Origin: Branchiostoma floridae
Lineage: Eukaryota; Chordata; Leptocardii; Amphioxiformes; Branchiostomatidae
Assembly: GCF_000003815.2 (NCBI RefSeq)
Contig: NC_049982.1
Location: 9,878,890-9,942,889, forward strand
Direction of reading: 5' to 3'
DNA: 64,000 bases
Both the position numbers and the translations under genes were made by a program. The notes below the pieces were generated by a model. It did not search any database, was not told where the DNA came from, and worked only from the letters and a program-made list of their open reading frames with translations. Below are positions 5,901 through 61,776 of the stretch, one piece after another (position 1 is the stretch's first letter; each line of letters opens with the position of its first letter).

Positions 5901-8900
5901 ATAACACACATTAGAAATAAGTGTGGAATCGTGATGTGTGCATGTCCTGTTGTATACGGTTTATTTAATTTTACTTGAATGAAACATGAGTAATACAGTC
6001 TAACCCTCATGACGTCATATCCGCACGACGTGTGGCTCTCGACGTCGAACGTCTGGAAGCTAATAGTGACGGTGCTGCCGGCGGTGGCGTTGACCAGGTA
6101 ACGGCAGGTCGCTGCGTCCAGGTAGTTCCCGGGGTACATGGGGGAGGTGATCTCGCCGAAAGCACCGCCGAAGTAGTACTGCCCGCAGTCGGGGTGGATG
6201 CCAACTATGAATCAAAGGAAAGCAAATTATACATGTTGTAAGCGTGGAAAACCTTTGCATAGTTCATATTTTACAATATGAAAAGTGATTATTAGACAAA
6301 ACTAGACTAGCGCTAGCGACCATTACATAGTTATACATATATATATATATATATACTCAGCCCATCCTCAGTGCTGATGATACACATAAATGGTTTGATT
6401 CTTTGCTCTATGACATCTATGCTTTCCTCTTCAGATGTAAAATATATTATGGCTACCTTGACAGGGCCAGGGACAGTCTTGTGTTTCCACGCTGTGTCCG
6501 GTACAGCCGTTCGGGTCGGAGCAGAAGCGCTGGCGGGTCTTGGTGCAGGTGTCGTCACACGGGCTCCACTCGGTCCAGTCACTCCAGCCGACAGGCATGT
6601 CTGGGAAGAGAGACGTAAAAGGCAAGAACATATGCCCTCCTATACAATATGATGTGTACATACTGTTCTTAGCCGAATTTCTATAGAAAGAATACGAGCA
6701 CTAATTTGGCAAAGTTTTCACTTTGCTGTTACAGGCGAGAGCAGAATTGAATGGTCAAAAACGTCGAGGTCTTTCACTGTCCTGACCATCTCTCTCAATG
6801 GGATCTGCCTAGGTCTTACCATTTGTTTTGCTCCATGCCATATCCCAGTTTTTAAAAAAAACGCATGCAAATCCCGTTTGAAAACATCTCTACTCACGGC
6901 AACTGTACAGAGTGTTGAGCTTGGCCACGTCGGTGTCGCTGAAGCCTGACCTCTGACCCAGAGACGGCGCGCCGCTGACGCGCGCCACGATGGTGGGGCT
7001 TCCGTTGGAGCTGAAGGCCGTGGCGCTGTAGTGCATCACGGAACCGTAGTCATAGTCCACACCCAGCCCCGACACGTCAACCTCCGAGTACCTGTTGAAG
7101 TTGTGCTCCTTACCTGGACAACGCCAATGCATTATTATGTTAAGACATGCCGTGCAATACCAAGTGACACCAACTAATATGAACTTTCTTTTTTATCATG
7201 TGCGACGAAGAAGCTGCGGTGTAAAGAAATGTAGTTTCCTGGAGTAAGGAACGACTTGTCTTCCTGAGTGAAGTGTAGTTTCCTGCATTTTGAGTGCCTT
7301 TAATCTTCCTGAAAGAAATGTAGTTTCTTGGAGTTTGAGTGCCTTACCTTCCTGAATGTTCTCCCACTGGATGATGACCCAGTCGTCCCTGTCGAAGCGG
7401 GACTGCTCGTGCCAGAAGCCGGCGGCGTGCATGAACTCGTGGATGGCGATGCCTATGTAGACACAACCGTTCCCGAGGGACAGGTCCTGCCGACCGCCCT
7501 GCACACCCACGTAAGACCAGCATCTGGAAAAAATGTTGAACATTATAATATATAGATAGTCTCCTTCGGTCAATATATTTGACCATGGTAAAATCCTAAT
7601 TGATATCAGACCTCAGCTTCGAATATGACTAAACAGTCCAGAATGGCAGCTGCAGTCTCTGAAAGCTGACCCAGGTCTGTTCCAAAGTTCTTTTCTGAGG
7701 ATCCGCTTTTTTCTGCCATGCGCATCGGTCTGGTTTCTCCCAATTTTAGCTGCCAGGATAGTGTCAGTCTCCAGATGGATCTGCCATTTGCAAGTTTCTG
7801 CCAGTATTCTGTGTTAACGTTAATGTTTATGTCCCTCTTTGGACAGTATACAATTTGTTTTCCGTGTGCATCATATACTCTGTGACCGTTATAACACTTA
7901 TTGCACGAACCCACGACGCGCCAAGAGCCGGAGCAAAGACTTGCTCAACCGCTCCATAATTGATACTAAACCACACGATAATACGTTGTAAGTGCCACCA
8001 GATGGAGAGATCGAGATAAACCCTTACCCTGATCCCTTCTGGACGTAGAGATAGTCTGTCTCAGTAGTTCTCGGGACGAAGGAGATGCAGGTGCGGACCT
8101 CGTACTCATTCATTGCCTGCTGGATCACAGACTGTTCAGAACTCGCTGTAAAAAATATCATTCATAAATATCTATTAGGAAAAACTTTCTGACAGTCTGA
8201 CAGTAGAAAGATGATTGGCCATGTCATGAAGGTCATGTTACATGTCATGTCATATGTGAAGATGATAAAGGAGAATATGATAAAGAAAAATAATAAGCCA
8301 TACGGTCGGAAAGGGTAAAAGAATATAAGTGCTTTCTATGTAGTTTTATTAACCAGATATAAAAACCACAAACATCAGTGTGGTTATATTGTGTTTTTAA
8401 ACGCGACTCTTCTGTCGATGTTATGTCACTTGCAGGGCTATGGCTACAACAGAATGCTACATGGCGCCATATTTACGAGATATACATGTATCTAAGGAGA
8501 ACAGTCTGTCTTATTTACGTAAAGTAGCTCTGAAACTGTCTTACAAAAATCTCCAGCTTTGAGCTCGTAGGGGATGACCCTGGATGCCCAGACCTTGGAA
8601 ACATCACGGATTCCGTTCCTAGAAGTCTGCGAAAGAACAGAGGAAAATCTGATATGCTTCCTGATACGCTTAGTGACCAATAGATTTTCTCGATCTAGTG
8701 ACTTTCAATCAGTCCCGACAGTTACTCACAACACTGTAAAGTAACTAAGGCTGTTTTTACGGATAGAAATCTCATAAGATGGTCGATCGCTGGTCAAGAT
8801 AGGTCGTGATATATCTATGCATGCTTACCGCAGTTTGTGGGATGTCACCCTCAAACATGTTCGTATCTGAAGAGAAAAAAAATCATTTGTTTAACAAAAA

Positions 8901-12554: not shown

Positions 12555-15500
12555 TCACCACCGCAGTGAGTAGGTCGTGGCAGCCAACAGGGACACGAGC
12601 AGGGCCCAGGACACGGTCGGGACACCGGAACCGGAAACTGCAGAGATAGGGAACATGGGAAAATTTATATGGTTTTATAGTTGGATAACTCCGTCATATA
12701 CGCTCCCCCATTGTATACTCTACATAGATGATGTAAACGTGATGATTACCCTGAATTATATCCATCTATCGGCAATGAAGGTTAGGCATCCTGGTAATAA
12801 GATACGTCAAACAGCAGTTACTCAAGCAGTTCCAAAATCATATCCAGTTGCTTGAGTAACTGCTTGTTGGATTATATCTATCTACATATCTATCTATCTA
12901 CATATCTATCTATCGCATGAAAAACATTATCTAAAACACTACTTATGAATATCATAACAACGATGTGTGGCATTGGCTATTCAAACAAAGGAGAAGCTAT
13001 AATCATTCAAACATCATATCTCGGACTTTAAGAATTTCTGACATGACGAATGCCTACCACAGCGAGCTATGCAGATCTCATTGGCTGAGACGATGGGCGT
13101 GGCCTCGTGCTTGGTGATTGACAGGTCGCCCTGATTGAAGGTTCCGCCTTGCGCGAAGAACATGTGGAGACAGTTGTCGGCAAAGGACAGATCAGAGTCG
13201 TCACCTGATGGCAAGAAAAAGAAATGATTGTAATTGTCTTGATATGAAAGATGAAGACAAGACAAATGTAGGTACGCTTCACATAAATATAGCACTATCG
13301 GGACATAGATATTTTCAGGTCTATGATACGAAGACCTTCAGACCAATGCTAACTTTCCAAAATTTTCAAATGCAAGTTGACAAAAATAAGGCCTAGCACT
13401 AAAACAATTGAACAAAATAGCACAAAAAGCTGTCTGTGAGGATAGTGCTGCACCTGTTGCCCGTGCACGTGTAAACTTGATGCGGAGGACCCCGTCTATG
13501 TACGATCCTTCCTTCCCTTCCAGGTCGTCAGAGTCATCCACACCGACACCTGTGGTGGACTTGGCAGACAGCCATCTGCACATGGTAAGAAAAGAAACAA
13601 GCGTAAGCTCACTTTTATCTAGGATGTGATGTAGGAGACAAAAATAGAAATGAAACGCCTGGGACGTTTCAGAAGGTACGAGTATGGAAAATGTATACAA
13701 GGGTGTACAAGGCACATAAGCTGAACTAAAAACGATGTCCTCACTGTACTCCAAGAGGTACCAATTTGCTCTCTGGTCATAAAAAAAATCGAAGACAATT
13801 ATCTTGCTTTTCTTCTGGTTGTGCCCCCATGGCTGATTTATTACTGGTATGGCTTTTTCTATGATATAGCATTTTCTTCGTCACCTGTCCGTGATGGTCA
13901 CAGTCCCATCGTCGTTCCACCATCCCACCACTGCATCAGCGTCGGTCTAGCAATCAAACGAGAAAATAATTCACATGAAGGCCAAAGGCAACATTATATG
14001 ATATAAATCTATATTGACTATAAACTATCATTCTTAATTTAACAGACTGAGTACGTTCATAAGAAGGAATGTAACAAAGCAAGAGCACAAGACATAGAAG
14101 GGTCACAAGAGCCTACCATTGACTGGTCTGTGGAGAAGCCCAGCCCGATCCATCGGTCGCTGGTCTGTCTGCCCATCACGTCGAACATGATCTTGTCTGT
14201 GGTCTCGTCGTACCACCAGCTGGCGGAGTAGTCACAGGCCGTGCCCTGGCAGCCGTCAGGGCTGCTGTAACTACCCAGGCACTCTGTGGAGCCCGAGGGG
14301 CTGTCGGGGTTCTCTAGAATGAATGGAGACAGTGTGGTATGTGATCCACTGTTCCAGTCAGCCTGAAAATTTTTTCTATCTCCTGAATTTTGAATGGAAA
14401 TCTTGTCGAAGGCGTGAAGATCCAAAGGGGTTCGGGGACATGCTCCCCAGGAAAATTGTGAAATCTTGACCCTCTAAAATACTTTTTCGTTTATTTTGAG
14501 GGAAAATATTGCGGGTAGACTCGGTTTGGTTTAATCCATATTTTTACATGCTCGATGGCGGANNNNNNNNNNNNNNNNNNNNNNNNNNNNNNNNNNNNNN
14601 NNNNNNNNNNNNNNNNNNNNNNNNNNNNNNNNNNNNNNNNNNNNNNNNNNNNNNNNNNNNNNNNNNNNNNNNNNNNNNNNNNNNNNNNNNNNNNNNNNNN
14701 NNNNNNNNNNNNNNNNNNNNNNNNNNNNNNNNNNNNNNNNNNNNNNNNNNNNNNNNNNNNNNNNNNNNNNNNNNNNNNNNNCTAGGTTACGTTGATGCAC
14801 TGAGACACGCAAGATAAAAGTTACTCACGCAGCAGGATAGATTTTTCTTTAACGTTTTTCAATACCCCCATCTACAAAAAGAAGGTATCAAAATGTTTAA
14901 GTTGGGTCTATCTCGTCGGCTTATGCTCTGTTCATTTTGATGGCTGCTTCAAACTAACTCAAACTCAGGGAAGCACGGCACATACACGTCACGTACATTA
15001 ACGTTAGCCATCATGACTTTACTCAGCTGAGTATCGTTGCGGTCACCCTACCCTAACTATGGGACATATAACACAGGACTGCGTATTGGGTCCCAACATC
15101 TCCAGCCGAGACATGCTAGACGCGAACGAGAGGGCATTGGCTGCAGTACTGGCACGGAACGATATGATGATGATCATGAATTTATTAAGGGATTTTAAAG
15201 GTTTCGTGACCCACCGTGGAGCTTCTTCCTGAACCTGGCCGTGATGACACCGTTCTCCTCCCTGGCGATGGCGGCGGTGAGGCTGTCCCCTCCGCCGCTG
15301 CCGTACCACCTGTCCCGGCGGGGCGTGGAGCGGTCCCGCGTGTAGCAGTCATCCACCCGGTACAGGTCCCCGCGGGTCACCACGATCACCATGTCCGTAC
15401 AGTCCATGGCGTGGAGGGAACCGCCGCCTGTAGATCATGTAGGGAAAATGTGTTGGTGGTGTGAATTGCTTGACATGTTTTAAAAGTGTCTGACATGCAT

Positions 15501-18500
15501 CATGTAGACATTGCGCACAGTTAAACAATACAATCGCATTCACAATATAAATCAATTTTCAAAAAAGAAAGCATGGATTTATTTCAGGATCGAATATCTT
15601 GTGCATAAAATCTGAACAGTTCCTTTCCTTACTATTATCTGGCCCTTTACTTGATTTCTGAAGGTGTAGATAAAACACAACATACGGAAGCAGAAAAATC
15701 TGCAGAGCTTAACAAGTACTTTACAAGTTTACAAGAACGGTATACCGGTACCGCTTTCCGGCTCTCCCTCCGGTTCTGCTTCAGCAGTGCCTTCCGGTTC
15801 ACTTTCCGGTTCCGCCGTGCCTTCCGGTTCCGCTGTGCCTTCCGGTTCCGCCGTTCCTTCCGGTTCCGCCGTGCCTTCCGGTTCCGCTGTACCCTCCGGT
15901 TCGCTTTCCGGTTCACTTTCCGGCTCAGGCGTTACGCACTGGTCCGGAACGATGGACTCAGCCTCGGGTTCCGGCTCGGACGTAGCCTGCCGAGTGTACC
16001 GCCGAATACTGCGTGCAGACCGCTGGCTCTGTCGTGAGGAAATAACAATGTTGGTTGAATGAATGATGTGTTTGAAGTGCTACTAGCTGAGAGAATAACA
16101 TATTGACAAAAAGAAAGGATGAAGACTGTACAAGTCAAATGGCGAAGTGAAATGATATAATAATCTCATGTGTCTGCTATTGACACTATTGACTGATCTA
16201 GTTAAAAAGTAATACTACGGTCACAACTGCGCCAGTGTGCGTTGGGGGTGTAGCCCCAACCAGATTCTGACGATTATGTCATTTAACCAGGTTCCGTGTT
16301 GATTTTAACTCCAAATTAAAAGAAATCCGGGGCTCGAACGTGCCCAAATATAGCCAGATTGCCACGCAGGGGGCACGTTTGAAATTACATAACAGCAGCC
16401 ATTATACGTGCCCCCTTTTCTACTTCTGACGGAAGCATTACGGGGCTATCAAGAGTCGATATCCCATAAGGGAATCAATAGTTACAGTCACGAAAGGCTC
16501 CTCTTCCTCCTCCCTCGCCGGTTTGACACCCTCATATCCAGCGTAGTTCACCGGGAAATCCCGACATGTGGAGGTTAGACCTATAGGACAACAGCGAGCA
16601 GGAGGGGAGTGAAGTGACATCATGATAAAATGTATTATGGGCGTCAGGTAATCCGTTTGTTCTAATAGTGGTAAAGAGTAATACACTTATTAGTATGACG
16701 GGAAACCGTTCAGTACCAAGGACAGAGACAACGACGAGAGGTCAGATTCCAGTCGCGCTGAGTTGCTCAAAGGAGCCTGGTGGTACCGCAGTTGCCACAG
16801 CTCCAGCCTGAACTTGTACTTGGATACTCATGACGGCATCTACGACGATGTCTGGTACCGATGGAAGGACCCCCACTACTCCTTAAAGCGCAAGGAGATG
16901 GAAATCCGACAATGTACATAATTTTACACGTTTTGTTGTGGAAACCACCATTGTCATTCTACATTGCACTACGTTTGAGAGCATAAATAATAGAACGATT
17001 ATAGGACGTACCTGAGGGTCTCCACCCTACCGCTACCCAGCCCATTCCCTCCGTCTGCAGCATCACTTCTATCTCACCGGAGCTCTGAAAACGGCGTGCG
17101 GACCAGGGGTGGTTATTGTAGGCGAAACTGCCAAGGCGTTTGTCACATACATTCTAAGAACTCTCAATACAGAACAAGTCGATTGGGGTGAATTTGTTGT
17201 AAGAATGTGAAATATATGAATGGGTAAGACTTCAACATTTGAAGGCATCCTATTGTCCTAGTGTGAATAGTGTCGAAAGGGCTGTTATACCGGCTATAAA
17301 GATACAGAATCATGAAATAAAGGCCTGTCCTAGGTTTTTAATCTGCAGTAATATGTATGAATATGATTCATCTTGTACAGAATAAAGGTGATTTTAAACC
17401 CCATAACAGATACGGTAAGTAGTACCTGCATAATCTTCCAATAAAGGTCAAACCCGTCCGTCAGCTCCCTGTGGAAGTAGTCGCTGGTGTCCATGTCAGT
17501 GGTTGTGATGTCAGAGCCTGTTATGGAATCGATGATACGGAAACGAATAATGACTTAGGGTAGAATTTGCTCGGAACTGCTGCTCGGAACTGCTATCGTG
17601 CCGAAGACAGTCCATTGATAAGAAACCTACGATCTCATATCTTTGGGAAATGTTTAGAGTTTGTGTGATTTTTTATTCATTATTGTGAATTTGTCACTAA
17701 TTCTAATCCATTTCCCAGCCTTCCTGTGAGACATTGGACCCGGAAAAATCTGCTGCACCAACTTTCAACCGGACCAAAGAAGCCCCCAATCTTGATTATT
17801 TCCAGTTACACAATTTTCGTACTTACATCCTGCCACCTTGCTTAGACTCAAACCAGCGGGAAACCTTAAACACACACCAAGGCAAAAAACAAACAAACAA
17901 ATAAACAAACAAACAAACGAATAGAAAACAATATCTCCGTTTTAACGAAAGTACTGAGACTTACTTGAAGAACACGTCTCTCCGAACCAGCCGGCCTCAC
18001 AGAAACATCGGTTCATGGGGTAGTTCGTCATCGACACTTTCACACACACGGCATGGTCACCGCAGTCAGCGTCCGTCTCACAACCGTCTGACAAATAGCA
18101 AATCTAGTTATTGACTTGGTCCGTGAAGTAATGTTATGATTATGTGGACAGCGTCAGTTAAGCACACAAGGATTACGAAGGGGCCCCTCAGATACTGTTA
18201 CAACTTGGACCTTTATTACAACATGGCCGCTCGGTGGAGCAAAATGAAACACTCAAAGAACTCGTGACCTAATTAACACACTGAGGTACACCGAGGTGGC
18301 GCAGCGTCTATACTAGGTTATTAGGCTAGTATGTTGGACAAAAGTAATAAGGCACCTCGACAGCTGGCAATATATGACATATTCCACGATAGCTACAGCA
18401 TGTACATGTGTGTATATTTGCCCTTAGGAAAAGACCTTGTGTCGGTAAATCATCGTTGCTGTTCTGTATGTCACCGAGTGCGTGGGTAGAATATCTTTCT

Positions 18501-20712
18501 TATAGCGTCAAGCGGCAAATCCCTGTTAATTCCTTACCCTTAAATCAAGAAGCTAGTTTCCTCAAGAGACTGTCGGCAAATAGAAGTTAGTGTCCTACCT
18601 CTGAACTGACACCTGTCTCCCGTGTACAGGTGATCGCAGGTGCAGGTGGAGCCGTCGTCGCTACAGGTGCCGTGTCCTGAACACCTGGCAGCGTTGCACT
18701 TGTCTCCGTCAAATATGGTAGCAGCTGGGGAAGGGCATTTAACGCTAGTTTACCTTTATTCGCGGGGTAACCTATGTCTGTTGTCTAAAAAAGGGCATTT
18801 GGGAAAATAAAGTCCATGGATGGTGGTTTGAAGCTGCAATATTAAACGTGATTTTTCAAAATGTTGCAGCTTGAAAAACCACCGTCGTCGGCATCGTATC
18901 CCTTAATACCCTGTTTCTGTAGCAATCAATATAGTTTACCACGCTGATAAAGGTCAGCTAGCGTTAGCAGTTTAAAGCCAGTTTTTCTTCATCACTCCAA
19001 ACGAGATTATCTTCACCCACCATGCCGATAACCAAAGGAAGCAAATTGACAGCAATTGTTAGACGAGAAATAAAACAAACTAAAGTCGTCTTAAATGGAA
19101 AGCTTAAAGTTCCCAGTCGCTTACCGTCATCTACGGTGACGTCAGAGCAGCTGTAGAAGACGTAGTCGTCACCACCGGCAGTTGTCCACTCCGCCGCCTG
19201 GCGGGTCAGACGGAGAGTGCAGTTCACGCACTCTGTGCTGATCTGCACGGTATAATTCTGCCTCCTGATCGTGATTGAAAAAAAAATCAGATCTATGTCA
19301 AATGATCAATACTAGTATTTGGCAAAATCTATTTGTGCAGTTCAGTATTAGCAAGTCATGGCCCTCTGTAACAGTAGCTGTTATGAAAACATGACCATTT
19401 TCCGATGTTGAATATTACATGTTCCTAAAAAGCACTGACCCCAAAAAAGATATTTTAGTATTTCAGCGGACACGTATCAAACTTCCGTCATAGCTTATTC
19501 AAATTCTAGATGAGTGACACATGACAATCTCTTGTTCATATATAACATGTTTTCAACTATCTTGCTGTATGTATTGCTAGAAATTGTCTACCGGACCGAG
19601 TGCGTTTTACTGGAGTATATTTGCAGGACGTCTTTTGTAAGTGCCTTATCACGTGATTCACCTGAAAATGTAAACCCTATATAATACAATTGCAGATATA
19701 TTTGTGTGAGACTCACGTAGCGTCGTCGGCCCCCGTGTAACCATTCCCGTCGTCAGGAGTGAGCAGGGTGGGGCTCTGGTCATCCTCGCTCGTCAGAAGT
19801 TCGATTTTGAACCCGCCCTTTTGGAAAGCGCAATTTAGCGGATTACTTACACACAACAAACAATCACGCCCTGAAAAAAAGCCATCACAAAAGTTGTATA
19901 TCTATCTATTCACTTGTTTGTAATGTTTGGCTGTAAACGACATACAGACAGTTCTGCCCAACTAGCCGGTGTCTATCACAACGGGCTATAGCTATGAGTA
20001 GCACACTGCGGTCTTCTAAAACATTGCTATGTTACAACAACATTGTAAGTACTTTAGAAGACGACAAAACAGTTTTACATCAGCGGTTCTGTATATGGAT
20101 GGTTAGTGCACGGTTGGGAAGAAACAATTTGTGTGACTCACGGTGTGAACGTAGGCTTCGTGCCACTCCACAACTACATCCGTGTTCAGTGGCAAGTATG
20201 TGATCTCCGGCGGATCTGTAAAGTTAATAGTTAAAGTAAATGTCGTAAATTTCCCTATTACACATACTAGCAGTGATGCATGTGGATTACCAGAAATTAC
20301 AGCATCTGATATACGATCAAATATGATTTATAAGATTGGTACATCGTTGGCTCAATGTTGATTCTGCAGTCCATGATAGAAGACCTGAGATTACTTCAGG
20401 AAACAGGTGTCCACTTGAACAATACAATAGCATTGGCAAATCAAGAGGATAACACAACCACCGTCAAAATGTCCTGTAAAGTCATCCCCTCACCCACTAA
20501 TGGACTTATTTTCTGTGATACATTACAAAGGTGAAAATATTTTTCACCCGCTCACCTGAAGAGGCCATGCCGCATGGACCCTGGCTCCCGTGCACGTTGT
20601 CGAGAAAGTCGAAGTCGAACCAGCGCGCGGGCGGGAAGGTTAGCCGGACGTGCCCGTGAGCGGTGACGACAAGCCATGCCAGCACTACCAACGTCCTCAC
20701 TGCTGCCGCCAT
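12555..20712 (-). CDS. GPI-anchored LPMO-like / EGF / DOMON surface protein
   Basis: Sixteen coding exons resolve with matching phases except at one gap: 20556-20712, 20142-20215, 19717-19817, 19125-19264, 18599-18724, 17965-18087, 17426-17517, 17012-17084, 16552-16580, about 15752-16028, 15215-15427, 14117-14313, 13885-13946, 13454-13575, 13058-13204, 12555-12637. The start at 20712 gives a clean signal peptide ending AHG, so the mature chain begins HVRLTFPPAR. The first module has His71 and His76 (WHEAYVHT) and YVFYSCSDV, as in lytic polysaccharide monooxygenases. Two EGF domains follow (exons at 18599 and 17965). DOMON 1 runs from YWKIMQ and GWVAVGWRP to SLTAAIAREENG and is interrupted by an acidic EPEGTA linker. 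DOMON 2 has WIGLGFSTDQSM and LHMFFAQG. The C-terminus (SGSG, then a hydrophobic tail) looks like a GPI signal. One exon closing DOMON 1 is probably in the N gap. The layout resembles insect nahoda-like DOMON/EGF proteins; copper chemistry is inferred. Confidence 0.88.
12780..12871. mobile_element. MITE family A, shortened copy
   Basis: GGTAATAAGATACG is followed by AGCAGTTACTCAAGCA, which pairs with TGCTTGAGTAACTGCT at about 12849-12864. The interior seen in the copies at 33332 and 56996 is missing. It lies in the last intron of the LPMO-like/DOMON gene. Confidence 0.6.
14563..14781. other. Assembly gap (219 N), probably hiding a DOMON exon
   Basis: The exon at 15215-15427 ends in phase 1 inside DOMON 1, and the next visible exon (14117-14313) already starts DOMON 2. 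The C-terminal strands of DOMON 1 are not found in the readable sequence between them, so they most likely lie in or beside this gap. Confidence 0.6.
15787..15915 (-). repeat. 18-bp coding minisatellite (EPEGTA repeats)
   Basis: About seven near-perfect 18-bp units (minus strand GAACCGGAAGGCACGGCG) encode tandem Glu-Pro-Glu-Gly-Thr-Ala. They form an acidic linker between two halves of DOMON 1. The period is a multiple of three, so copy-number change keeps the frame. Confidence 0.85.
17881..17919. repeat. (CAAA)n microsatellite
   Basis: A short run of CAAA/TAAA tetramers in the intron after the second EGF exon. Confidence 0.7.
18822..18883. repeat. Inverted repeat (hairpin) in an intron
   Basis: GGTGGTTTGAAGCTGCAAT pairs with ATGTTGCAGCTTGAAAAACC across a loop of about 20 bp. 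It sits just upstream, in gene orientation, of the first EGF exon. It may be a decayed MITE. Confidence 0.5.
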
Positions 20713-25125: not shown

Positions 25126-28100
25126 CTATCCGTTTACGGAGACCGCAAAAGAGCTATGAGAGTTCGCCATCTTCGTCGTTGCCTTTGACAGCAGCCAAAA
25201 AGTCTTTGACCCCTGCAAAACACGAGAAGACAAGCCATGTTATTATTGATTGTCATAGAGCAGCAATTGAAATAGGCAACACTTAGGACAATGATCCACG
25301 TTTGCTAGAAAGGGTATTTAGAAAATTTGGTCATCGGTGGATTCCATACCTTGAAATCCTCTTTGTGCAAATTGATTTTCTCTATTTGAACCACATATAC
25401 CTTCCATCATAATCCTACTATCTTTCTCATCATCTTAGCCGTTTGGTTCTTCATGATCAGTATTGGTGATAATTATGAAGGCACTGTACATACTGGCTGG
25501 TTCTTTCTCCAGTTGTGCAAGTCAGTACAATGGTCCAGGAAAAGGAAAAAAGGGACACTGAATATGATGTTACAGACGATGATAGAACGCGCCGCACCTT
25601 CACGCTTTTCGGGGTGTCCGCCCGCGGCACAGTTCTAAACACACCGGTCAGCACCAGTTCTTCATTGGTCGCGCTGGAAATCTGTATCTTATTTCCTGTG
25701 AGGTACATGTAAGACCAATATCAAACAACAAAGAATTTGTAAGTTAAATATTTGAAACTAGTGAATACAAGTATACGTTCTATTGTTACTGCAAATTTTA
25801 AGGGCCAACTCCTAGAGAACATATTAAGACCGGTTTGCTGCAAATCAAAGTTCATTAAAAGTCAATTACTACTAATATCTAGCTGAATGCAAATTGGCTT
25901 TGGCAATTGATGTCTCACGTATGGTGTTGTTCAGCCTAGTCTTGAATACAGTCCTATCTTAAGTGAAGCCAATGCTAGTGTCTCCCAACACTAGAGTAAA
26001 GTTTAAACTTTTCATGACAAGAAAAGGCCCCCGTGAACAAAAAATTACTAGTTGATATAGCGTTCTTGCCATACCTTCGCTGGTGGTCTCCAGCCCCTTG
26101 GCGGTGGTGACAGTGTCTCCGAACACCTGGTACCGAGGTCGCTTGTACCCCACAACTCCGGCCACACACGGCCCTGGAAAAACATCCCAAAGTTTAGAGC
26201 AAGAAGGTTGTTTAGAGATATATCGACAAAACCTTGTAGCTTATAAGAAGAGGTGGTATGACAGTATCTGCAAGAAATATCAAGGTCTACATCTACAATG
26301 TGCGGAATTAGAAGTAAACTTTATTCATATCGGAGACACACCCTTCAAACTTTGAAGACAGCATTAAGATGCCCTTTTCAATAATCTGAGTCATAACATC
26401 GTTGGGTGTTGAGAAAGGCATGTTCAGACCTGTGTTGATGCCGATGCGGAGCTTGATCTTACAGGAGACGTGCACGGGGTCGAACACCTCGGCAGCCGAC
26501 AGGAAGTGCAGCGCCAGAGACGCGATCTCGCTCACGTGCTGGTCGTCATTCGCCGTCGGTAGTCCGGACACCACTTCGTACGCACCTCCTGGGGTAATAA
26601 CACGCGTACGTTTCTAAAACAGCAGCTGCAGATGACGATACTATTGACAGAATGTTTGTATATGTATATATTCATAAAGACTAATATATAACTGCCAGTT
26701 CTACCACGTTGTTGCATAACCCCAAATAGGTCTTCGAATGAACCACATGGTAACTGGACACGTTTCGGTACGGTCACATTTATTTATTTGTCGTAAGCCG
26801 TCGCAAGATTTCGATGTTGCAGAATTTTTAACCAGGCTGTTACAGTAAAAAGTTTGATAGAGATTATTTCTGGTTATAGATCTGACCTGAGCCGTCCAGT
26901 TTGGTGGCGTCATACTGATCAATGACGGAGTCGAAGGTGTGGTAGAGACGGTTCAACAGGTCAATCAGCTGGCTGGACGACAGCGAGGCCGAAATGCGGG
27001 AGAATCCGACGATGTCCGAGAACATGATCGTTGCCTGAAAAGCATCCATATCTTTCTTCAGATCACATAAAATTAAGATATTCGAAAGGAAAATAATGGT
27101 TATTTCCAACATGGGATCAAAATATATCTAGACGTAACACAAGACTGAAGTACACTTACCGTGTCAAAGTGTTTAGGCGGCACGGCTTTGTTTTTCGTCA
27201 TGTCCTGTGCAATGGATTTCGGGAAGATCTGACACAAGAGTTGTTCCGCCTTCTGTCGTTCTTCGTTGAGCTCCTCTGTCTGTTCGTTGAGGCGGGAAGC
27301 GAAGGACTGCGTGTCGTTCGCCATCCTGTAGATTCCGGATGTGATCAAGAGACTGAAAACTAACACCAGCACCAGCACTACGATGTCGATGGTAACTTCG
27401 GTACTGCTCTTCAGCACTTCGTAGTCTGAAATGTTGATAATTTTTTCTGCGATGTGTTTTTCCGCTGTACGGAAGATGCTGATGTAGGTAGTCATGTTGT
27501 CGAACCAATTTAAACCTTCCTCAACATCAGGTACGGTTTTCTTGTTCTGAAGTATCTTCTCGCGCATTCGAATGATGTTATGTTGGAGCGTTGTATTTTT
27601 GAAAAGTCTGTCAAAGCTAGAGACGATTTCTGGATAGTACCAACGTGCCGCATCCAGGTAAGACTGCCCTTTGAATCTGGCCTCATAGTACCGCTTTTCG
27701 TCTTCACTGGATAGCCCTCCTTTGACCAGGAAAGAGAGGGATTTTTACAAGGTAATTCATCCTTGAAATTTCACAAACGACATTCATTTGCATCATCATC
27801 ATCATTAATTAAGAAAAGTTCTGTGTCAGACACATCGTCGATTGATGTATATAATGATCTAGATTTCTTAAGTCACAGTCGGTTATGATAAGACACATAT
27901 GAGAATAGAACTCTCAGACATGAAAGTACACAGAATTTGCTTGTGTAACCCAGATTATCATAACTGCAGGACCATGAATGAGTAACGCTTAATACCTTTA
28001 GCAAAGTAGACGCTCCCCACCGCCCTCTCCAGCCCGACATAGTCTTTACTGGTCAGCAACATGTGGTAGGCCACGCCTGTCGTCCACAGCATGCTCGTGT

Positions 28101-30778: not shown

Positions 30779-31803
30779 TTACAATCTCGTCTCCGTGGAG
30801 GTTTGCTCAGGAGCGTACTCCAAGTAGCGATCTGAGCAAGTAGCACAGTCTCTCGCCTCAACGTCTGATGTTGGCCTGTAATGAAGGAGACGAATTTCAT
30901 AATTTGACGACCGCTTCTCACTCCTCCGGCCACACACGAGATCAAAGAAGCTCCTGCGTTTGTGAGAAGATTCAATGTGGCGTTTTCCATAAATCCCCTC
31001 CTCTGCTTGCTGTTCGCCACCATTTCTGGACAGTGGAGCAATGTTGTTGAGAGTGGAAAAATCACACTTTTCTTCTTCAGTATCTGGCACACCTTGGATG
31101 CATTTGCTGTCGTTTGAAGAGTTTCTGGTTTTCAAGAGATTTTCTAAACGTTTGGAAGCAAGATCCGCGATCTTTCGATTCATAGATTTTCCGTTCAACC
31201 TTTCTTCACCTTTGACAGAGTGATAGGCCTCATCCAAGATGGCGAGGAACATCAGGATGATGATGAAGTTAAAGAAGAACAGGAAAGCAAACAGCATCGT
31301 TGGTCCCAGAATCCAGTGCGCTCCTTCTACTCTGTAGTAGTCAAATGAGCCAAGCATCATTTGTAACATGGTCTGCATCGTGGAGATATATGAACTATAT
31401 CCTTCTAGGGAATCACCGAGCAAAAGGAACGCCAGCATAGCAAACGAGGAGAAAACGATGGCAAATATGAGCATGAATCCGCACAGGGGCCGTGCCGCCA
31501 TCTTGGTGACCTTCGCCCCACGTTCCACAAACTTGTTAAAGAGACACAGTTTTAGAAGTTTCAAGGTCGCAAGACAGACCAGACAGCCGAGAACATATGT
31601 TTTAATTGTGTACCAGCTGGTGGCCTGGTGGTACTTGCTGTAGGGTTGGGTTGTTTTGTGGTGCGGTCTGTTGAAGTCGACGAGTAAGTATGACGTGTAC
31701 AGTGTAACCCCGATCTCAGCAAGAGACAGCATGCAAACGCACAGGTCCACAACGTTCCAAAACATCTTGAAGTAGCCTGATCCTAGCAGAAGCACTTTTC
31801 TCA
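30779..31803 (-). CDS. Terminal channel exon of the polycystin-1-like gene
   Basis: A single 1,025-bp exon. It carries S3 (MFWNVVDLCVCMLSLAEIG), S4-S5 segments (CLVCLATLKLLKLCL; MLIFAIVFSSFAMLAFLLLG), the pore helix and filter (MMLGSFDYY), S6 (FNFIIILMFLAILDEAY), and a basic cytoplasmic tail of about 150 residues. At the filter position where PKD2 channels have LGD, this protein has LGS. Like the plus-strand polycystin at 464-1932, it keeps most of the channel in one long last exon. Confidence 0.85.
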
Positions 31804-34800
31804 CTGCAAACACAAATTTTTGATATGATTCAAGATTGAGTTGATAGAAGAAACAAAATAGGCATTGAATATCACTTGGGTGGCAAAGTAGTAATATCAA
31901 TGAAGTATGTTTAATCTTTGTCTGAAAAGACAAAACGATCGAATTAAGACAATAACGGAAAATCATCTTAATTAAAGAAAATTCGTCGACTCACAGTAAC
32001 AAGATAGACAACTTACTTTCTTTAAAGAAGTAGTAGAAAGTGATGAGGACGAAGATGATTTGAAACCCAAGGACAATGTAACTCCAAGTCGTTGTGTACA
32101 ATAGCCTGACCGTTGTTGCCTAGAGAATAATGAAAAGGTTGACTTTGAGTTGATCCTTAGAAAGTTACGGGGGTTTACATCATCATAAGCTGTGGACAGG
32201 ATGTTTCTGGGCATGTAGATTTTCAGAATATTTTACTGAAATGAAATGCAAGTAACAACAAAATGTCAACTAAAGATTCACACTATACCTTCACACTTGT
32301 ATCCACTTTTCCCCACGCCGTGAACTCCGCCAACAGCACGACGACGGAGAACAGGTTGCAGTTGGGGTTGTACACGATGAACTCAATAAACACAGCTCGG
32401 GTCTTGTGATCGATCCAGCCCGACGCCTCAAGTTCAGATAAGGTCAAGTTCATCTCAGTGACGTCAGTGAGTTCTGACAAGTAGCCACCTCCTTCATAGA
32501 AGCCGTGTTTCCCCGGGTGAGGTACCGCTGCTGTGAGACGAGATAAGATTTACAATTCATGTTATGGACGATGAGGAACCCTGATAACATTGAGACATTA
32601 TTCTGAACATTTGGATCCGTCTTTGTGATGTATCATTTTTTCTAAGTATAAGTGAAGCTTTGATTGTAGGTAAATGTATATGAAATATTTGATCACTCAC
32701 GNNNNNNNNNNNNNNNNNNNNNNNNNNNNNNNNNNNNNNNNNNNNNNNNNNNNNNNNNNNNNNNNNNNNNNNNNNNNNNNNNNNNNNNNNNNNNNNNNNN
32801 NACGCGACACGCTCCACCTAATGATCGAAGACTAAGGTTAGCATTTTTACAATGAAAGGGACATCCAGTGCACAGTGGTTCCACACTCAAGCAAACTGTC
32901 TTACAATATATTGACGGCACCACTCGACAAAACATGATACATGACATATAACAAGAAAACATTTAATCGGAAAGCATTTTGTTGGGGAGCTCGAGACGAT
33001 GAGTTCTTTTACATAGTAGATGTCAATTATTTCAATCAAAATTTACAATTATCAAACATCAATGTATGCAATAAAAGCCTACCTGGACCCACACGAACCT
33101 GCCGGAGGGTTATAGGACCCACAAGGTGCGATACTCTGTCCTGTAGAACTCCATGTAGAGGGAACAAGTCACCGTTGTACCAGGACGTTTTACCAACTTC
33201 ACTTGGGAGAGACGTTTTCACATAGCTCCAGAACTCTTCAGGGGAGGTAATCTGGGCAGAAAAACAAACGATGACGTTCTAAATCTTTGCCTAGATACGA
33301 AACTTCCAAACAAAGAATATAATTCGTCGATGTAGGTTAGACATCCAGGTAATAAGATACGCCAAAAAGTAGTTACTCAAGCAACTGGATATGGTTTTGG
33401 TCAGTGTCACTGACGAAGGATTTGGATCTATCCGAAACGTCTGACCGTTTCCAAAACCATATCCAGTTGCTTGAGTAACTAATTTTTGGCGTAAAGAATA
33501 TAATTGTTCTTGAAGAGTAAGCAAGATCTTCTTGTCGTTCATTTTTGTAGTTAAAAGAAAACCTCACTGTGCGAAAAGGGTCGATTTCCGGACATTTCAT
33601 GTATAGAATATGTCTGACAGGGATATAGTGCGTATACGGAAACGTATCCTGTCTTGTAAATGGGAACATGTTTTGTCGCAGCATATGCTTACCTCTTTAA
33701 ACGTGGGGACGAAGATGCTTTCCATGCTGCGAGTCATGTGGTACATGTTGGCGTCACGGTTGCCATTGGCAACCACAAGTAGGACCAGGATGTAGAAAAG
33801 GTAGAACGCCAGTTCGTGCAGAGCTTGTCGCAGCCCTATTTCTACAAACCGCCACTCTCGGGCTTTGTCCAGCTCGGCGCTGTCAGGTGGGACCGATTTT
33901 TGGGGTACCTGGAAAAATGTTTTCTCAGTAAATCTTGTAAAAATTAGAAATAGATGAAAAGGATGGTGATAGAAAAGGCATAGTTAGGATTTTAATTCGA
34001 GGAACATGATGAAAATGTAACGACCTGCATAAAAGGGTTGAGATGTTCCTCGTCATCTTGCAGGGGCGTTGGGGGGACGTAGTCGAGTCCAGCGTCAGGC
34101 GTCTGCAGAAACACGTCATGCTTTCTTTATATATAGAATAGCATTACCTACTTTGTTCATCGTTATTATACTAACAACTTAAGATAGCTTCATGGGTCAT
34201 GTAGTCTTTTGCATTAAGATGATAAATAATGGGTGAATAGTATTACCGTTTCATGATTATCACCATAATCTTTACGAAATGCCATGTGTTATCTCATGAA
34301 ACACGGTCTAAAAGGGCAAGAATAAACACAGCACCTTTACTACGAGTGCGATGAAGAGTCCGATGAGGATGATTTTGATGGGTTGTGTGATGAGGATGTC
34401 GAAGAAGAATGACGTCAGGAAGGTGAGAAGCCACGCCTCTGCCTTATCAGGCCCGTACTCGAACCCGTACAGGATGGTGAAAAACGCCGAGGCCGCACAG
34501 GAGCCAAGGACCAGGAACCAGGCTGGGGAAGGAAAAAAGACATGGTAGATGGTGCAATAACCATAATGAAATCTACCAAATGCCTTCAAAAGTCTTCTGA
34601 AAGAACGCAGTAAAGTAAAGTACTTTATGTATCGTTACTTACCAAAGACAATGAACCACCACGGTAACAAGCAGCCTCTTGCCTTCTTAGAACCTCGACC
34701 TCCTGTTAAGATAAACAGACAATATGCTGACCAATTTAAGTTAGCATTTCACCGAACTGCCATGTAGTCATTTTTAGTCAAGTCAGTGATATTCTTAGCA

Positions 34801-37800: not shown

Positions 37801-40800
37801 CATTTGGAGGTGAAGATCTTGATGGTATAGTTCAAGGTGATGTTACTTTCTCGAATGTCCAGGTCAGTGTCGTCCCGAAACGGCACATTCTCGCTGTCAT
37901 TTTTGGGGACGTACTCCACACCTAGTAGGTGAAATTTCAAGGTCATGATCATAAGGTACTACAATTCAACGGCACGAACGTGACGAATTCATCAATCTCC
38001 CTAGCTTCTGTAATTACGTCGAGAAGCATGTCCCAGTTTCTAAGACCGTAGCCTACCATAGGCTAAAATACGCCTGCGACACACGTAAATATTGGTCAAT
38101 TTAGACATCTTTACACATGGTGGGCGTATTCACTACACGAGATCCATCAGTGTAGCTTTATCCTTCAAACATGTGCTTTCTTAGTTGAAATGTATTCAAA
38201 AGATACATACCAAGATAACATTCTCCTTCCCAACCGTCAATCTCGTCCTCGGGAATATGGACAGTGTACGGATCCGCTCGTATGTCCTTCTTATCGTCCA
38301 TTGGGATGGTGTAGAGCTGCTCAGGGGCTTGCGGCAGTGTGAAGGTCCAGTTGAACGTTGACCTGGTGGGCGGAGCCAGGTGACGGAGGTACAGGTGGAC
38401 GGTGGCACCTTCTTCATCCGGCTGCAGGGTGATGTGCACGGCTCCTTCACCAGTCACGTTGAACTTGTGGACCTATTGCGAAGCAAGTATAGTTAGAATT
38501 AATGACACATGATGACTGCTCTTGCCCTTCGTCGGAGTGAGATGGAATTGAAATCAAAGGGTTAGGGACAGAGTGATGGCAATTTTTCTTACAAGTTTAC
38601 AAAACCCACCTGGACGCCAGTGCTGATAAATACAAAGACATAGATAAGCAGGACATTAAGACCAAATTAAAGAAAAGACAAAAAAAACATAACAATGTAT
38701 TTATTAAACTTTACAGAAAAAAAGTTCTGCAAGGTGTGGGCAACAGGATGATTTAAACGTCCTTTACAGAACCCACACCTCCAGCACAGTTAAAAACATA
38801 ACATAATACATAGAGAATGGGCAAATTAAAGCTAAGTTCTTTACATAGAGATATTCTTGCAAAATAACAGCAAAATACAAAATAATACCCAGACGAAACA
38901 ACTGTACAAGGGATCAGATAAACTAAGGTTAACGTTAACAAACAAATGAGAATCATGTAACTGAAGGTTGACCACACATTTTGATGTTCATCCAATCAGC
39001 ACTTGCAACAATGGGTCCAAGTGCTTATTAGATGGACATCAAAATGTGTGGCCAGAAGAGAGAAGTAATGCTCAATAACGGACTGCTTAAAACGATTGGT
39101 TGAAAATGTAGGATTTAGCCGGAATTGTCTAATTTCAGGTGGTAAGGCGTTCCATATGTCGACAATTCTATTAAAATAGGAGTACTGAAAGTTTGTAGTG
39201 TGACATACCAGGGATGAGTTTAGCTTGTGAATGTGCTCTTAAAAAGGGATGTGGGAGATTAAGAAAATTGTCAATATCAATATCGTAAAGTCCTAGTAAG
39301 CACTTATATAAAAAACATAGATCTAGTATTTCTCGTCGGTAAGACAGAGGTAAGAGTGAACAATGTATTAATCTCGTCTTGTAGTCTGTTGTGTAATCAT
39401 TAAGAATACACTTGGAGGCACGTCTTTGAACTTTTTCGATTGAGGAAATGAGGTTGTGCGTATAGGGGGACCAAATTACAGAGCAGTACTCCAGTCTGCT
39501 TCTGACTAGAGTGAGATATAGTATTTTTTTTACATTTACAGGGGCATTGAAACCTACAGATCTCTTTAAAAAGCCGAGAGCTGAATTTGCTTTCGAAATT
39601 ATATTATGTACATGAGAATTGAAAGTCAGATTCCACGTAGCTAAGACACCTAAGTCGGTGAATTCAGGAACAGACTCGAGGACGCGATGTCATTCATTAT
39701 GTACGTAAAATTAATAGGATTTCTAGATCTGCTTACTGTGAGGATTTTACATTTGTCGGGATTAAAATTCATTTGCCAAGTATCACTCCAATCGTACATG
39801 CAATCAATATCTCTCTGGAGTGATACACAATCTAAGACAGTAGAAATCTGTTTGAAACATTTAGAGTCGTCAGCGTAAAGGCCCATTTTGTTGCTAACTA
39901 CGGATGGAAGATCGTTGATATATAATAAGAAAAGGAGGGGACCAAGAATTGACCCCTGGGGGACTCCCGATACTTCTGGGAGCCAATCCGAACACGTACC
40001 CTCGACCATTACACGTTGCCTCCTACATGAAAGATAACTATGGAATCAGGTAAGTAAATTTGTACGAAAAGCTAGAAAGTTTGCAAGCCATCAGATCTTG
40101 CTCTCCACCCGATGACGAACCCGATAACAGGACACAGTGTTGTATTTAAGCCGTTGGTAATGTGTACAAGAAAAACCCGAACTGTCTAGCATTTATGGGA
40201 TATAGATCTTGTGTATATAAGGGCATTGGCTTTACCGTCATCAGATTATGACCAATGGGTGCAGTGGCAGCTCGTTCTGTCCGTACAGCCACTGCCCCGT
40301 CCTTCCGTGGCGTCACCACCTCTATCGGCTGGGTCAGGTTGTGTACAGGCAGAGCACCGCTGTCTGTCCGGAACTGTAGGGCAGCTACTGAGGACTTGAC
40401 CATGTCGGCGTTACTGGCATAGCCGAAGGGATTCAATGTCGTTTGGTAGTTCTGCATTTCAGAAAAAAAACATTCATGAAAACTTGCAGGACTATTCATC
40501 CTATAGATAAAGGATGGACTATTTCACTCGCCCCTGATGTCTTAATTTTTCAAAGACATAATTAGTATCATTAAGTACATACATGTACACCGACTATCAT
40601 CTGAGTAGGTTAATATTTCATATATATCCAATCCATAAAAAACAAATAAACACAGATCTAGAATTGACGTTTGAATGAAAAGTAAAGACATACAGTGACG
40701 CATGTACATGGTTTAATAGTTACAAGTCTGGTCGGAAGACAAACACTTGAAGAAAAGAAGGGTCTAACGCGACCCACCTCCGACCCGACCGAGTCCCCAC

Positions 40801-43800: not shown

Positions 43801-46800
43801 TAGTATTGTTATAGAAATATACTATACTTTTATGTTTTAATGTTTGACGTACCGTTGCATGACGCGGAGAAGGATGTGACCAAGGCAGTTCCTACAGGAG
43901 GTGATATTGTGCAGGATCCCACGGTTGGTGGTTCGTTTGTCTCAAAACTGTACTCCGCAAATCCTTGGCGCCCGTCTTCTAGGGAAACCTCAACTCTGAG
44001 CACGTAGTTACCGGAGACCTTGGATTATAAGAATAAGCAAATGATAAAAGCAATGATATCGATATCGATATATTAAGATATTGCGCTTCTCAGTATTCAT
44101 AACATCAGCATGGAAATGACACTAGTATTGTTTCTGTATCAATGACCTAAAAGAGTGTGAAGCAATGACAATGCAAAATGGGTATGCCGACCTACCGTGA
44201 AAACACCAGATCGAACGACAAGATCGGGAAGATGCTTTCCCGTGATGCTCTCTACGTCCCAGTTCAAATCGCTCCGGCCGAATCTCATTGGCGCTTTTAC
44301 TAAGAGCCAGTCATAGGACACGCGGTTGTCCAGCTTACAATTGGAACACGTGGATTCCAGCACGAGCCTCTCTGACGGGTTTGCTCTTCTGTTGCAGTTA
44401 GAGTGACAACTAGAAAGACAGCATCATATCAGCCACCATGTATGGATGATATACATGTATTTCATTTGAAACTTTAAGGCAGGATAAGCAAAGAGATATT
44501 ATTTAGATTCCGACCATACAAAGTGGGAACGTTTTAGACAACCCAAAGAAAACCTTTAGTCTAAGTTTACTTAAATAAAATCTTTGTGCAGGAATTCATA
44601 AAGAAAGGAATCTTTACACTGAGAAGTAAGTAAGACACTGTGACAGTAAGAGAATTACCTGATCGAGACAATTGGGGAGCCCTCCTCCACTATCCAGAGC
44701 GCCTGGGCGAACCACACGGGCTGTCGTCCGGGATAGCTCATGGTTACGTTAAAGGTAAATACAGTCTCGCCAGGAGGTAGTGTTGTTTGGTTGATGAGTT
44801 GGACCGGACCGGATGCTCCATCGTTGAACACTTCATCACACACATCTGCGACAAAGGAAAGGACAGTCGATCACGACGGTTAATAGTTGAATCATGAAGT
44901 ATGTGTAGATATGTAAACAGCCTTATTCTTAGTAATTTGTCACTTGTCATTAAAATTCAGAAGTAAGAATAAAGGCCATATTGCATATAGTTAAGATTAC
45001 ACACAAGTATCATCAGTAGATGTTATAAATTGACGACACAAACACGCTGCTTACACTGCAATTTCTTACTACGCAGACGTTGTTATTGACTATATGCATG
45101 TTGCATAAAAATTACCACACCTTTGCTGCTGTTGTATTCTTCCAATGGATGTCCCGCCATGCACGACCAAGTGTAGTTCAGCGATGAAGCCTCTGTCATC
45201 CCGTCGGGATCAAAAGAAGACGATGCATTCAGTACGATGTCTGTCCCTTCAGCCAAGGATCTCGCTGTTCCACCGAAAATATCAGCCACTAACGGTGACG
45301 GGGCGACTCGGACCCAGCGCTCTGCCTGTTTCAACAACTTCAGACCAGATAGTTCATCCGTTACTATTGCATTCACGAGTAAAAGGATATTCCCATACGG
45401 AAGAACATTCTTTGGCATCAGAAGTTCTGTCCTTGTCGTTTTTATACTTGCAGGCAATAAAATGGGTACTACACGAGATGTTCGTCCGTTCCCGTGTTGT
45501 TGAAATGCAGACCATTCATACTTGACTTTGTTCTTGTCAGATTTACATTCAAGGTTCGCTTGTGCCTGCAACTGCAGGGGAAACCTCCTCAGGACAGTCT
45601 CTGCAGACGACATGTTCGCCCCACCGCCACTCACGGATACGGTAGCAACGCAAGGGAAGCAGGAATAGGATCCGTCCGTGTTAAGACATGTGTGCTCCTT
45701 AGGACAGGAGTGGTCACCTCTTGCACATTCATCCACATCTGGATTTGGGGACAAAATATACCGCCAATTTGAATATCTTTTTATCCGATATTCATTCCAA
45801 CACATGCAATACAGACCAGGGGCTTAAAATTTCTACACCAGAAACTCTCGTCGTACGTAATTCTTTCAATTTATGAGTTAGATGTATACAGTCACGGAAA
45901 ACGACGCGAGAGAATTGTTTGATCTTGTCAATCTTAGTAGTAGATATGAAATTAGATACAATGTCTAAACATTTGTAAACGTGACAAGTTAATGCTACCT
46001 TCACAGTGTGTTCCGGTCCATCCGTAACCCTTCCGCTCACATGTTGGTGTAGCAGTGACTGTGGAGCTGTGAGCTGTGGTAGTGTGGTGCGGCTGTGCAG
46101 TGGTGGAGGGCATGGCGTAGGTTGTTGCCTTAACGGTAGAAATGCTGGAATCTGTGGTATATTCTTCAGCCGTCGTGACAACAGGGGAATCTGTTATACC
46201 ATCGTAACGTTGGGTTGATGAGTCCTGCTCAGTAGTGAATTCCATAACAGGTGCATCGGTGGTATATTCATCTGTGGGGAAGACTTCTGCTGTTGTTTGT
46301 TGTAATTCTGTGACAGCTAAAACATCGGTTGTTCTTCCGTCTGTGGGATACATTTCAGCCCATGTCCCATCCGTAGTCTGCTCACTAGATGTTGTCACGT
46401 GCATCTCTGTTGTCCATGGATCTGTGGAAACTGCAAATCATTGTTAATAAAACAAACATTGATCAATGAAGGTTTGAAAGACAAAAGGTCAATACGCGTG
46501 GGATCGCCTGCCTGACATAGCCAAAATGTGTTTAAAGAGAGACACTGAAGGATCAGTGGGCTGGAATTAGTTGAGACGGAAGAAACAGAAAACACAAGTG
46601 CAATCGCCAATGACGCGCAGAGTGCATATACATACAAATATACAGTAACCTGGAATAAAGGAGCGGAATATAAAGTAAAGTTAGGAATATTAAGTGTCAG
46701 GAAACATGTTACAAAATGTGTAGTTACATTGGGCAGGGCGTGTAGAGGCTCCACCCAGGAGGATATAAATTGGGGCAAAAATCCTGAAAGAGACGGTGTG

Positions 46801-61374: not shown

Positions 61375-61455
<81 letters not shown>

Positions 61456-61776
61456 AACACACACAAACACACACACACACACAAGCACACACATACACAC
61501 ACGCGCGCACGCACCACACACACACAGAAACACGCACGCACACGCACGCACGCGCGTGCGTGCGCGCGCACACACACACACAGCTGCAGACACGTATGTA
61601 CACACGCGCGTACACACACAAGCACACACAAACACACACGCATGCACACACACACGCGCACACACACGCACGCACACACACAGGCGCCCACACACAGACA
61701 CACACACGCACAAACACAGACACACAAACACACTCACACAAAGACACACACACACACGCGCATGCACACACAAATG
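61375..61776. repeat. (CA)n-rich microsatellite, about 400 bp
   Basis: Pure CA for about 75 bp, then interrupted CA/CG-rich sequence with GCACGC and CGCGCG patches. It produces long artefactual His/Thr and Cys/Val frames on both strands. Alternating purine-pyrimidine tracts of this kind can adopt Z-DNA. Confidence 0.95.

Follow-up and report, generated by a model that had tools for sequence, protein, structure and literature searches.

The window analysed here is a 64,000-nucleotide stretch of the Branchiostoma floridae genome (NCBI RefSeq assembly GCF_000003815.2, contig NC_049982.1, positions 9,878,890 to 9,942,889), and the subject is a gene on its minus strand that encodes a predicted surface protein in which a putative histidine-brace copper module, remotely related to lytic polysaccharide monooxygenases (LPMOs) and X325 proteins, is joined to a DOMON domain of the haem-binding type. 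The single gene has 16 exons between positions 12555 and 20712 (first base 20712, last base 12555; Table 1) and a predicted product of 718 residues (718 codons plus stop). It was assembled by hand: anchor peptides were placed, splice sites were checked and exons were joined, and the result coincides exactly with the span given in the initial annotation. All 15 introns are GT-AG, and with each splice site checked the phases join without a frame break. A run of N at 14563-14781 falls within the intron that separates exon 11 from exon 12 and leaves the coding sequence untouched. Rfam and tRNA scans of the 64-kb window gave no match.

The chain reads, in order, as a signal peptide (residues 1-20), a histidine module (21-157), two epidermal growth factor (EGF)-like segments (167-196 and 202-238, six Cys each), DOMON 1, DOMON 2 and a tail of the glycosylphosphatidylinositol (GPI) type. 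The layout of two EGF domains, two DOMON domains and a GPI-type tail that had been proposed for this locus is therefore found in the translation, with every Pfam EGF model at 167-197 scoring below its own cut-off. The DOMON model (PF03351, cut-off 32.7 bits) matches the whole protein with 117.6 bits (E 5e-34), DOMON 2 alone with 89.7 bits and the DOMON 1 region with 36.7 bits. DOMON 1 is interrupted by an acidic insert, rich in Pro and Glu and with an EPEGTA repeat, that separates its two pieces. DOMON 2 covers residues 542-662 by Pfam and its last strand extends to about 691. Beyond residue 692 the chain is hydrophobic, and the C-terminal signal, CVSGSGVPTVSWALLVSLLAATTYSLRW, was judged by eye to be of the GPI type with a small omega site. 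A cleavage site between AHG and HVRLTFPPAR, directly before His21, is likewise plausible by eye. From these features we infer signal cleavage before His21 and surface anchoring; in the reading favoured here the protein is extracellular and probably GPI-anchored.

Table 1. Exons of the amphioxus gene, with their positions in the window and the basis or remark for each.
Exon and content	Positions	Strand	Basis or remark
Exon 1: signal peptide 1-20 and start of the putative histidine-brace module	20556..20712	-	His21 codon 20650-20652
Exon 2: WHEAYVH with His71 and His76	20142..20215	-	His76 codon 20145-20147, aligned to AA15 His91; paralogue WHMAYAH
Exon 3: middle strand of the module and Gly/Asp-rich loop (GGFKIELL...TPDDGNGYTGADDAT)	19717..19817	-	translation
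Exon 4: C-terminal strands of the module, CxxCTLRL and YVFYSCSDV (145-153)	19125..19264	-	Phe147 codon 19156-19158, opposite axial Tyr184 in the AA15 alignment
Exon 5: first EGF-like segment, six Cys	18599..18724	-	translation; Pfam EGF models below cut-off
Exon 6: second EGF-like segment, six Cys	17965..18087	-	paralogue 45% identical
Exon 7: start of DOMON 1	17426..17517	-	translation, paralogue
Exon 8: DOMON 1, GWVAVGWRPS, without Met at the haem-Met place	17012..17153	-	translation, paralogue
Exon 9: DOMON 1 loop and acidic run	16486..16580	-	two candidate donors at the 3' end, exon ending 16492 or 16486
Exon 10: low-complexity acidic insert within DOMON 1, EPEGTA repeat	15746..16028	-	translation, repeat scan
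Exon 11: second half of DOMON 1 (HAMDCTDM...TRDRSTP)	15215..15427	-	translation, profile match
Exon 12: start of DOMON 2, WIGLGFSTDQSM	14117..14313	-	candidate haem ligand Met581 at 14117-14119
Exon 13: DOMON 2 (TDADAVVGWWNDDGTVTITD)	13885..13946	-	translation
Exon 14: DOMON 2	13454..13575	-	translation
Exon 15: end of DOMON 2; His656 and candidate haem ligand His675 (13107-13109)	13058..13204	-	the paralogue has Tyr in place of His656
Exon 16: GPI-type C-terminal signal and stop	12555..12637	-	by eye

Within the genome (513 Mb, 431 contigs) one clear relative of this gene was found. A search with the window module as query returned the gene's own exons and, outside the window, a pair of exons on contig C15 and a stretch on contig C13 that is doubtful. 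The C15 paralogue carries a module with AHIRLTFPPAR, WHMAYAH, GGIRLEIL, CxxCTIRL and IFWSCADV, identical to the window module at 61 of 131 positions, and it has the same domain order from the signal peptide through DOMON 2, where the comparison ends; its first EGF-like segment was matched only at E 0.02. DOMON 1 domains of this type were found at two loci only, the window and C15, in a genome search up to E 0.1 with the best candidates scored. The C13 stretch (17263358-17263441; about 7367-7441 of locus L011) is a lone exon-1-like sequence, HVVFVFPPCRWFDYSFIG, followed by a stop and matched at E 0.8; it may be what remains of a third copy, or a chance match, and is not counted as a copy. Genome-wide searches with the PF03067, NF043005 and PF16010 profiles gave nothing useful because the gene is split into short exons, each searched singly, so that further copies could escape. 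DOMON exons gave 66 matches across the genome; 30 loci were fetched, and the readable ones look like what we take to be DBH/MOXD-like proteins, of no help on the haem site.

Profile searches and a modelled bacterial fold support the N-terminal module as a remote relative of the LPMO/X325 class. The bacterial SCE4755 model (NF043005, cut-off 75 bits) matches the full protein with 30.5 bits (E 3.2e-7), residues 21-157 with 34.2 bits (E 2.3e-8) and the paralogue module with 38.7 bits (E 9.2e-10); by these scores the amphioxus module is a distant relative of that family and not a member. The Pfam BIM1-like model (PF20238, cut-off 27 bits) gives 25.8 bits (E 1.6e-5) with residues 21-157 and 22 bits with the paralogue; it is passed by a bacterial copy (L066, 31.9 bits) and is absent from the Pfam listing for the full-length window protein. 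LPMO_10 (PF03067, cut-off 23 bits) is missing from the matches of the window module at E values up to 1, whereas the paralogue module passes it with 23.8 bits. At the level of family profiles, the LPMO likeness first proposed for the window copy thus holds only below curated cut-offs, with BIM1-like and SCE4755, and fails with LPMO_10. Once its first 24 residues were removed, the module had no Pfam match at E values up to 10, and a tblastn search against plasmids gave no match.

Profile-profile comparison reaches further. The amphioxus module pair aligned with 58 bacterial modules in hhalign at a probability of 98.8 and E 1.4e-16. A mixed amphioxus/bacterial profile searched against all PDB chains returned ten chains, nine of them LPMOs, with AA15 best at E 3.7e-8; some of the nine were named as LPMOs by what we take to be their family (GH61 as AA9) and others by their chain names. 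With 18 bacterial and two amphioxus modules all eight PDB chains returned were LPMOs, as were all seven with a purely bacterial profile. The amphioxus pair alone placed AA15 first, weakly (E 0.029), as one of four matches, and none of the four PDB matches of the window module by itself was an LPMO. An AlphaFold2 model of one bacterial relative (L036, pLDDT 92) matches LPMOs and LaX325, with insect AA15 best and LaX325 second; the LPMO-type beta-sandwich is read from this model, to which the window module is linked by the profile-profile match at E 1.4e-16.

The bacterial sister family was collected with a degenerate DNA pattern for ET[IV]xxHPG[HY][YF]R, which listed 83 matches in 80 loci, among at least 116 stretches. 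The titles of the listed loci name Myxococcota, Acidobacteria, Alpha- and Gammaproteobacteria, and others. In 80 of the 83 listed matches a hydrophobic stretch and a small residue precede a His; the other three are not assessable (two chance matches, one cut). Of the 83 rows, 73 modules were kept; the ten dropped were two that are not homologous (L041, L051), one with its start cut (L039) and seven that were cut, masked or lacked the chosen end motif (L027, L034, L068, L073, L075, L076, L086). In the columns free of pattern and filters, P27, C47, G48 and C126 are conserved in 73 of 73 modules and C123 in 72, while H21 (start filter), E72, T73, H76, P77 and G78 (pattern), and Y and C150 (end filter) are fixed by construction. 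The comparison set of 58 modules (A1) leaves out 14 of the 73 for thinning and one (L060) for a record labelled Bordetella parapertussis. Across loci L014-L093 the 3' end is closed in 77 matches, two of which are chance matches, and in 34 of these 77 the C-terminus consists of a Cys followed by a hydrophobic stretch and a part rich in Arg. These tails resemble what are presumably MYXO-CTERM surface anchors, and the surface anchoring of the brace module may be either old or convergent. Two end motifs, Y-Y/F/W-x-C-A-D and Y-H-H-C-A, further divide the modules of these loci, and in those with the latter the extra His pair beside the axial Tyr could bind metal. The neighbourhoods of the bacterial copies were sampled at up to three open reading frames per locus, with 41 of 43 and 117 of 122 picked frames scanned and the rest overlapping or cut. 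The commonest neighbouring family accounts for four of the 117 frames, one Rieske protein is among the single matches, and no recurrent copper gene stands beside the bacterial copies among the families listed (in the second set 25 of 100, the rest with at most two matches).

In the alignment with AA15, His76 falls on His91 and Phe147 on Tyr184, which the AA15 paper names as the brace and axial residues, and the paralogue has His and Phe at these places. The brace is therefore likely to consist of His21 and His76. Both His71 and His76 lie within WHEAYVHTGGF and had been put forward at LPMO brace spacing together with the YVFYSCSDV block; the alignment bears out His76 and the aromatic Phe147, and His71 was set aside as probably no copper ligand, since none of the 16 bacterial rows aligned has a His there. 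Residues 21-157 contain four Cys (47, 123, 126 and 150). The loop encoded by exon 3 is rich in Gly and Asp, and the loop Asp that 72 of the 73 bacterial modules have in common is also present in AA15 (LADGSG). In X325/Bim1 proteins the fourth copper site is described as occupied by an Asp from a Gly-rich loop; because the conserved loop Asp also occurs in AA15, the sequence is compatible with an LPMO-like as well as a Bim1-like module. Copper would be held at His21 and His76, positions that are backed by homology.

DOMON 2 resembles the cytochrome of cellobiose dehydrogenase (CDH). The CDH-cytochrome model (PF16010) is passed by the DOMON 2 of the paralogue (28.7 against a cut-off of 27 bits, E 1.3e-6) and reaches E 0.062, under the cut-off, with that of the window; the best PDB match of the paralogue domain is a CDH cytochrome (E 0.085), and PDB searches with window DOMON 2 and DOMON 1 returned nothing relevant. 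Published descriptions give the haem of CDH as Met/His ligated and the haem DOMONs of CYBDOM proteins as carrying SXDXXMGXD, with Met286 and His379 as the pair in CG8399 and M90 and H174 in HYP1. Window DOMON 2 has STDQSM581 and, 94 residues on, His675, without GXD after the Met, and the paralogue has SEDRSM and FSQH. In hhalign Met581 fell locally on the Met of CDH that we take to be Met65 (E 6.5e-4, at a probability of only 27.5); the His, presumably His163 in CDH, found no partner in any alignment. Met581 and His675 are thus the likely haem pair, the latter judged from spacing and the paralogue only. The initial annotation had suggested the same Met (FSTDQSM), which sits at the CDH/CYBDOM place, together with His656 (CLHMFFAQG); His656 is the less likely ligand, being Tyr in the paralogue, where His675 is kept. 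DOMON 1 has GWRPSG in the window and GWRPQG in the paralogue, without a Met at the haem place.

Taken together, reading this anatomy as copper and haem paired in a single chain is well founded. We tentatively favour, at somewhat less than an even chance, a two-cofactor redox protein at the cell surface whose haem passes electrons to the brace copper for the oxidation of a substrate outside the cell. The mature N-terminal His21 and His76 would form the copper brace in an LPMO-type beta-sandwich with Phe147 axial, DOMON 2 would bind haem b through Met581 and His675, and the EGF and DOMON 1 segments would tether the copper module to the haem domain. An external one-electron donor would charge the haem, the charged haem would reduce the copper, and the reduced copper would react with O2 or H2O2 at the cell surface, oxidising an extracellular glycan or matrix substrate, much as in the fungal pair of CDH cytochrome and LPMO but in cis. 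The proposal that one polypeptide holds both the copper oxidase and its electron donor is sustained in its anatomy, with the brace positions filled and a haem-type DOMON 2, and goes beyond it in the oxidation of glycans. We infer copper, haem and electron flow, and do not class the protein as a proven LPMO. More doubtful, although possible, is a self-powered chordate copper monooxygenase that founds a new LPMO class: a brace enzyme and its haem b donor in one GPI-anchored chain, oxidising surface or matrix glycans, with a bacterial sister family that is often surface-anchored.

Cellulose oxidation was reportedly absent with Bim1, which belongs to the related X325 class, and an LPMO-like fold alone therefore does not imply an LPMO. 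The main alternative, which we consider rather unlikely, is that the protein acquires copper as a Bim1-like module in cis with its own reductase, the module capturing Cu(II) at the surface, the haem of DOMON 2 reducing it and Cu(I) passing to a membrane importer. The BIM1-like match (E 1.6e-5) extends across the whole module, LaX325 is second in the structural list of the bacterial model, and the exon 3 loop could give an Asp ligand as X325/Bim1 proteins are described to have. In published accounts Bim1 is GPI-anchored and linked to copper import, and CYBDOM DOMON proteins take part in ferric reduction, with cupric substrates proposed. However, the PDB chains returned by the profile searches include LPMOs and none of the X325 type, and Phe147 is an aromatic of the kind that LPMOs have at this place. 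In addition, AA15 shares the loop Asp, which is hence not diagnostic, and among the families listed no copper gene recurs near the bacterial copies.

It is unlikely, in our estimate, that the LPMO fold and the DOMONs simply bind sugars or partners as a structural or ligand-binding surface protein without redox chemistry. DOMON 1 lacks a Met at the haem place, animal DOMON proteins have been listed in print as matrix or adhesion proteins, and the redox activity is a prediction. Such a role would not need an N-terminal His, however, and the paralogue, with a module diverged to 61 of 131 identical residues, retains His21, His76, an aromatic residue at position 147, Met581 and His675. An artefact of the gene model, either neighbouring genes joined by hand or a chance brace, is very improbable. 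The model is manual and drawn from genomic DNA alone, and exon 9 has two possible donors, but the introns are GT-AG with matching phases, and the recurrence of one domain order, signal peptide to DOMON 2, at two loci on different contigs argues strongly against a false join.

Elsewhere in the window, polycystin-type exons lie on both sides of the gene (304-1932 on the plus strand, 30779-31990 and 45083-48374 on the minus strand), with PKD channel content on both strands and with REJ, EGF and CUB exons and an F5/8 match below cut-off on the minus strand. The minus strand also carries HNOBA and a NIT match below cut-off at 27100-27744, a combination found in receptor guanylate cyclases that have a nitrate/nitrite-sensing-like domain; an astacin-type metallopeptidase exon at 7196-7612, whose open frame takes in a repeat stretch at 7223-7356; and the remains of a retroelement reverse transcriptase at 39171-40045 (RVT_1 on 39653-40045). 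An AC dinucleotide repeat of about 400 bases occupies 61377-61772.

LPMOs need electrons, and to our knowledge their supply to animal LPMOs outside the cell is an open question. A single chain with a copper site and a haem donor would make that question testable in one recombinant protein, and the cofactor predictions (copper at His21/His76, haem at Met581/His675) are sharp and cheap to test. If the favoured reading is true, histidine-brace copper chemistry extends to the chordate cell surface; should the protein instead serve copper uptake, no earlier animal counterpart of Bim1 is known to us. The section text of one phylogenetic study describes an early branch of the LPMO tree with sequences that combine DOMON/EGF and LPMO_10 (Voshol et al., 2019; PMC6950343), and this branch is very likely the family of the window protein. 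Its function would be a gain for a branch otherwise found in print as a remark on the LPMO tree. Open-licence literature, with subscription journals mostly outside it, yielded no account of a brace with haem ligands or of a mechanism for such an animal protein. A tunicate LPMO paper and a sponge DOMON paper do not describe it in the portions available, and 'Domon' in PMC5823890 is an author name and not the domain. The architecture thus appears to have been glimpsed before, and histidine-brace proteins and haem DOMONs are known kinds, while their copper/haem pairing at residue level appears new.

Set beside known systems, the protein shares features with several. The section text of PMC6950343 makes a brief remark, without the ligands, species or mechanism considered here. 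SCE4755 is alike over the whole module (His after the signal peptide, PCG, second His, CxxCTLQ and an aromatic-x-x-Cys end) but only 15-26% identical to the window module, with ETxxHPGHYR in place of EAYVHTGGFK. AA15 (TdAA15A, 5msz) is the best fold match of the bacterial relative and shares the places of His1, His91 and the aromatic, the CxxC and the CADI-type end. Published work on AA15, however, reports ten conserved Cys in the T. domestica LPMOs and in arthropod and mollusc matches, against four in the window module, and the window copy has no sequence match at a curated LPMO cut-off. With Bim1/X325 the Gly/Asp-rich loop is a candidate point of likeness, the Asp as third ligand being described for the fungal proteins. 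We know of no EGF or DOMON domains in those fungal proteins. The CYBDOM proteins (CG8399, SDR2/FRRS1, HYP1), as described in print, share the SXDXXM part of the haem-Met motif and a His 84-93 residues onward, and AIR12 is likewise described as a GPI-anchored DOMON protein; the window protein differs in lacking the GXD part of the motif and, in the Pfam scan, a cytochrome b561 match. The CDH cytochrome (PF16010, AA8) is a DOMON-type haem domain with Met and His that the DOMON 2 of the paralogue matches above cut-off and that of the window below it. Unlike CDH, the window protein is without a flavin dehydrogenase domain and would carry its haem domain in the same chain as the copper module.

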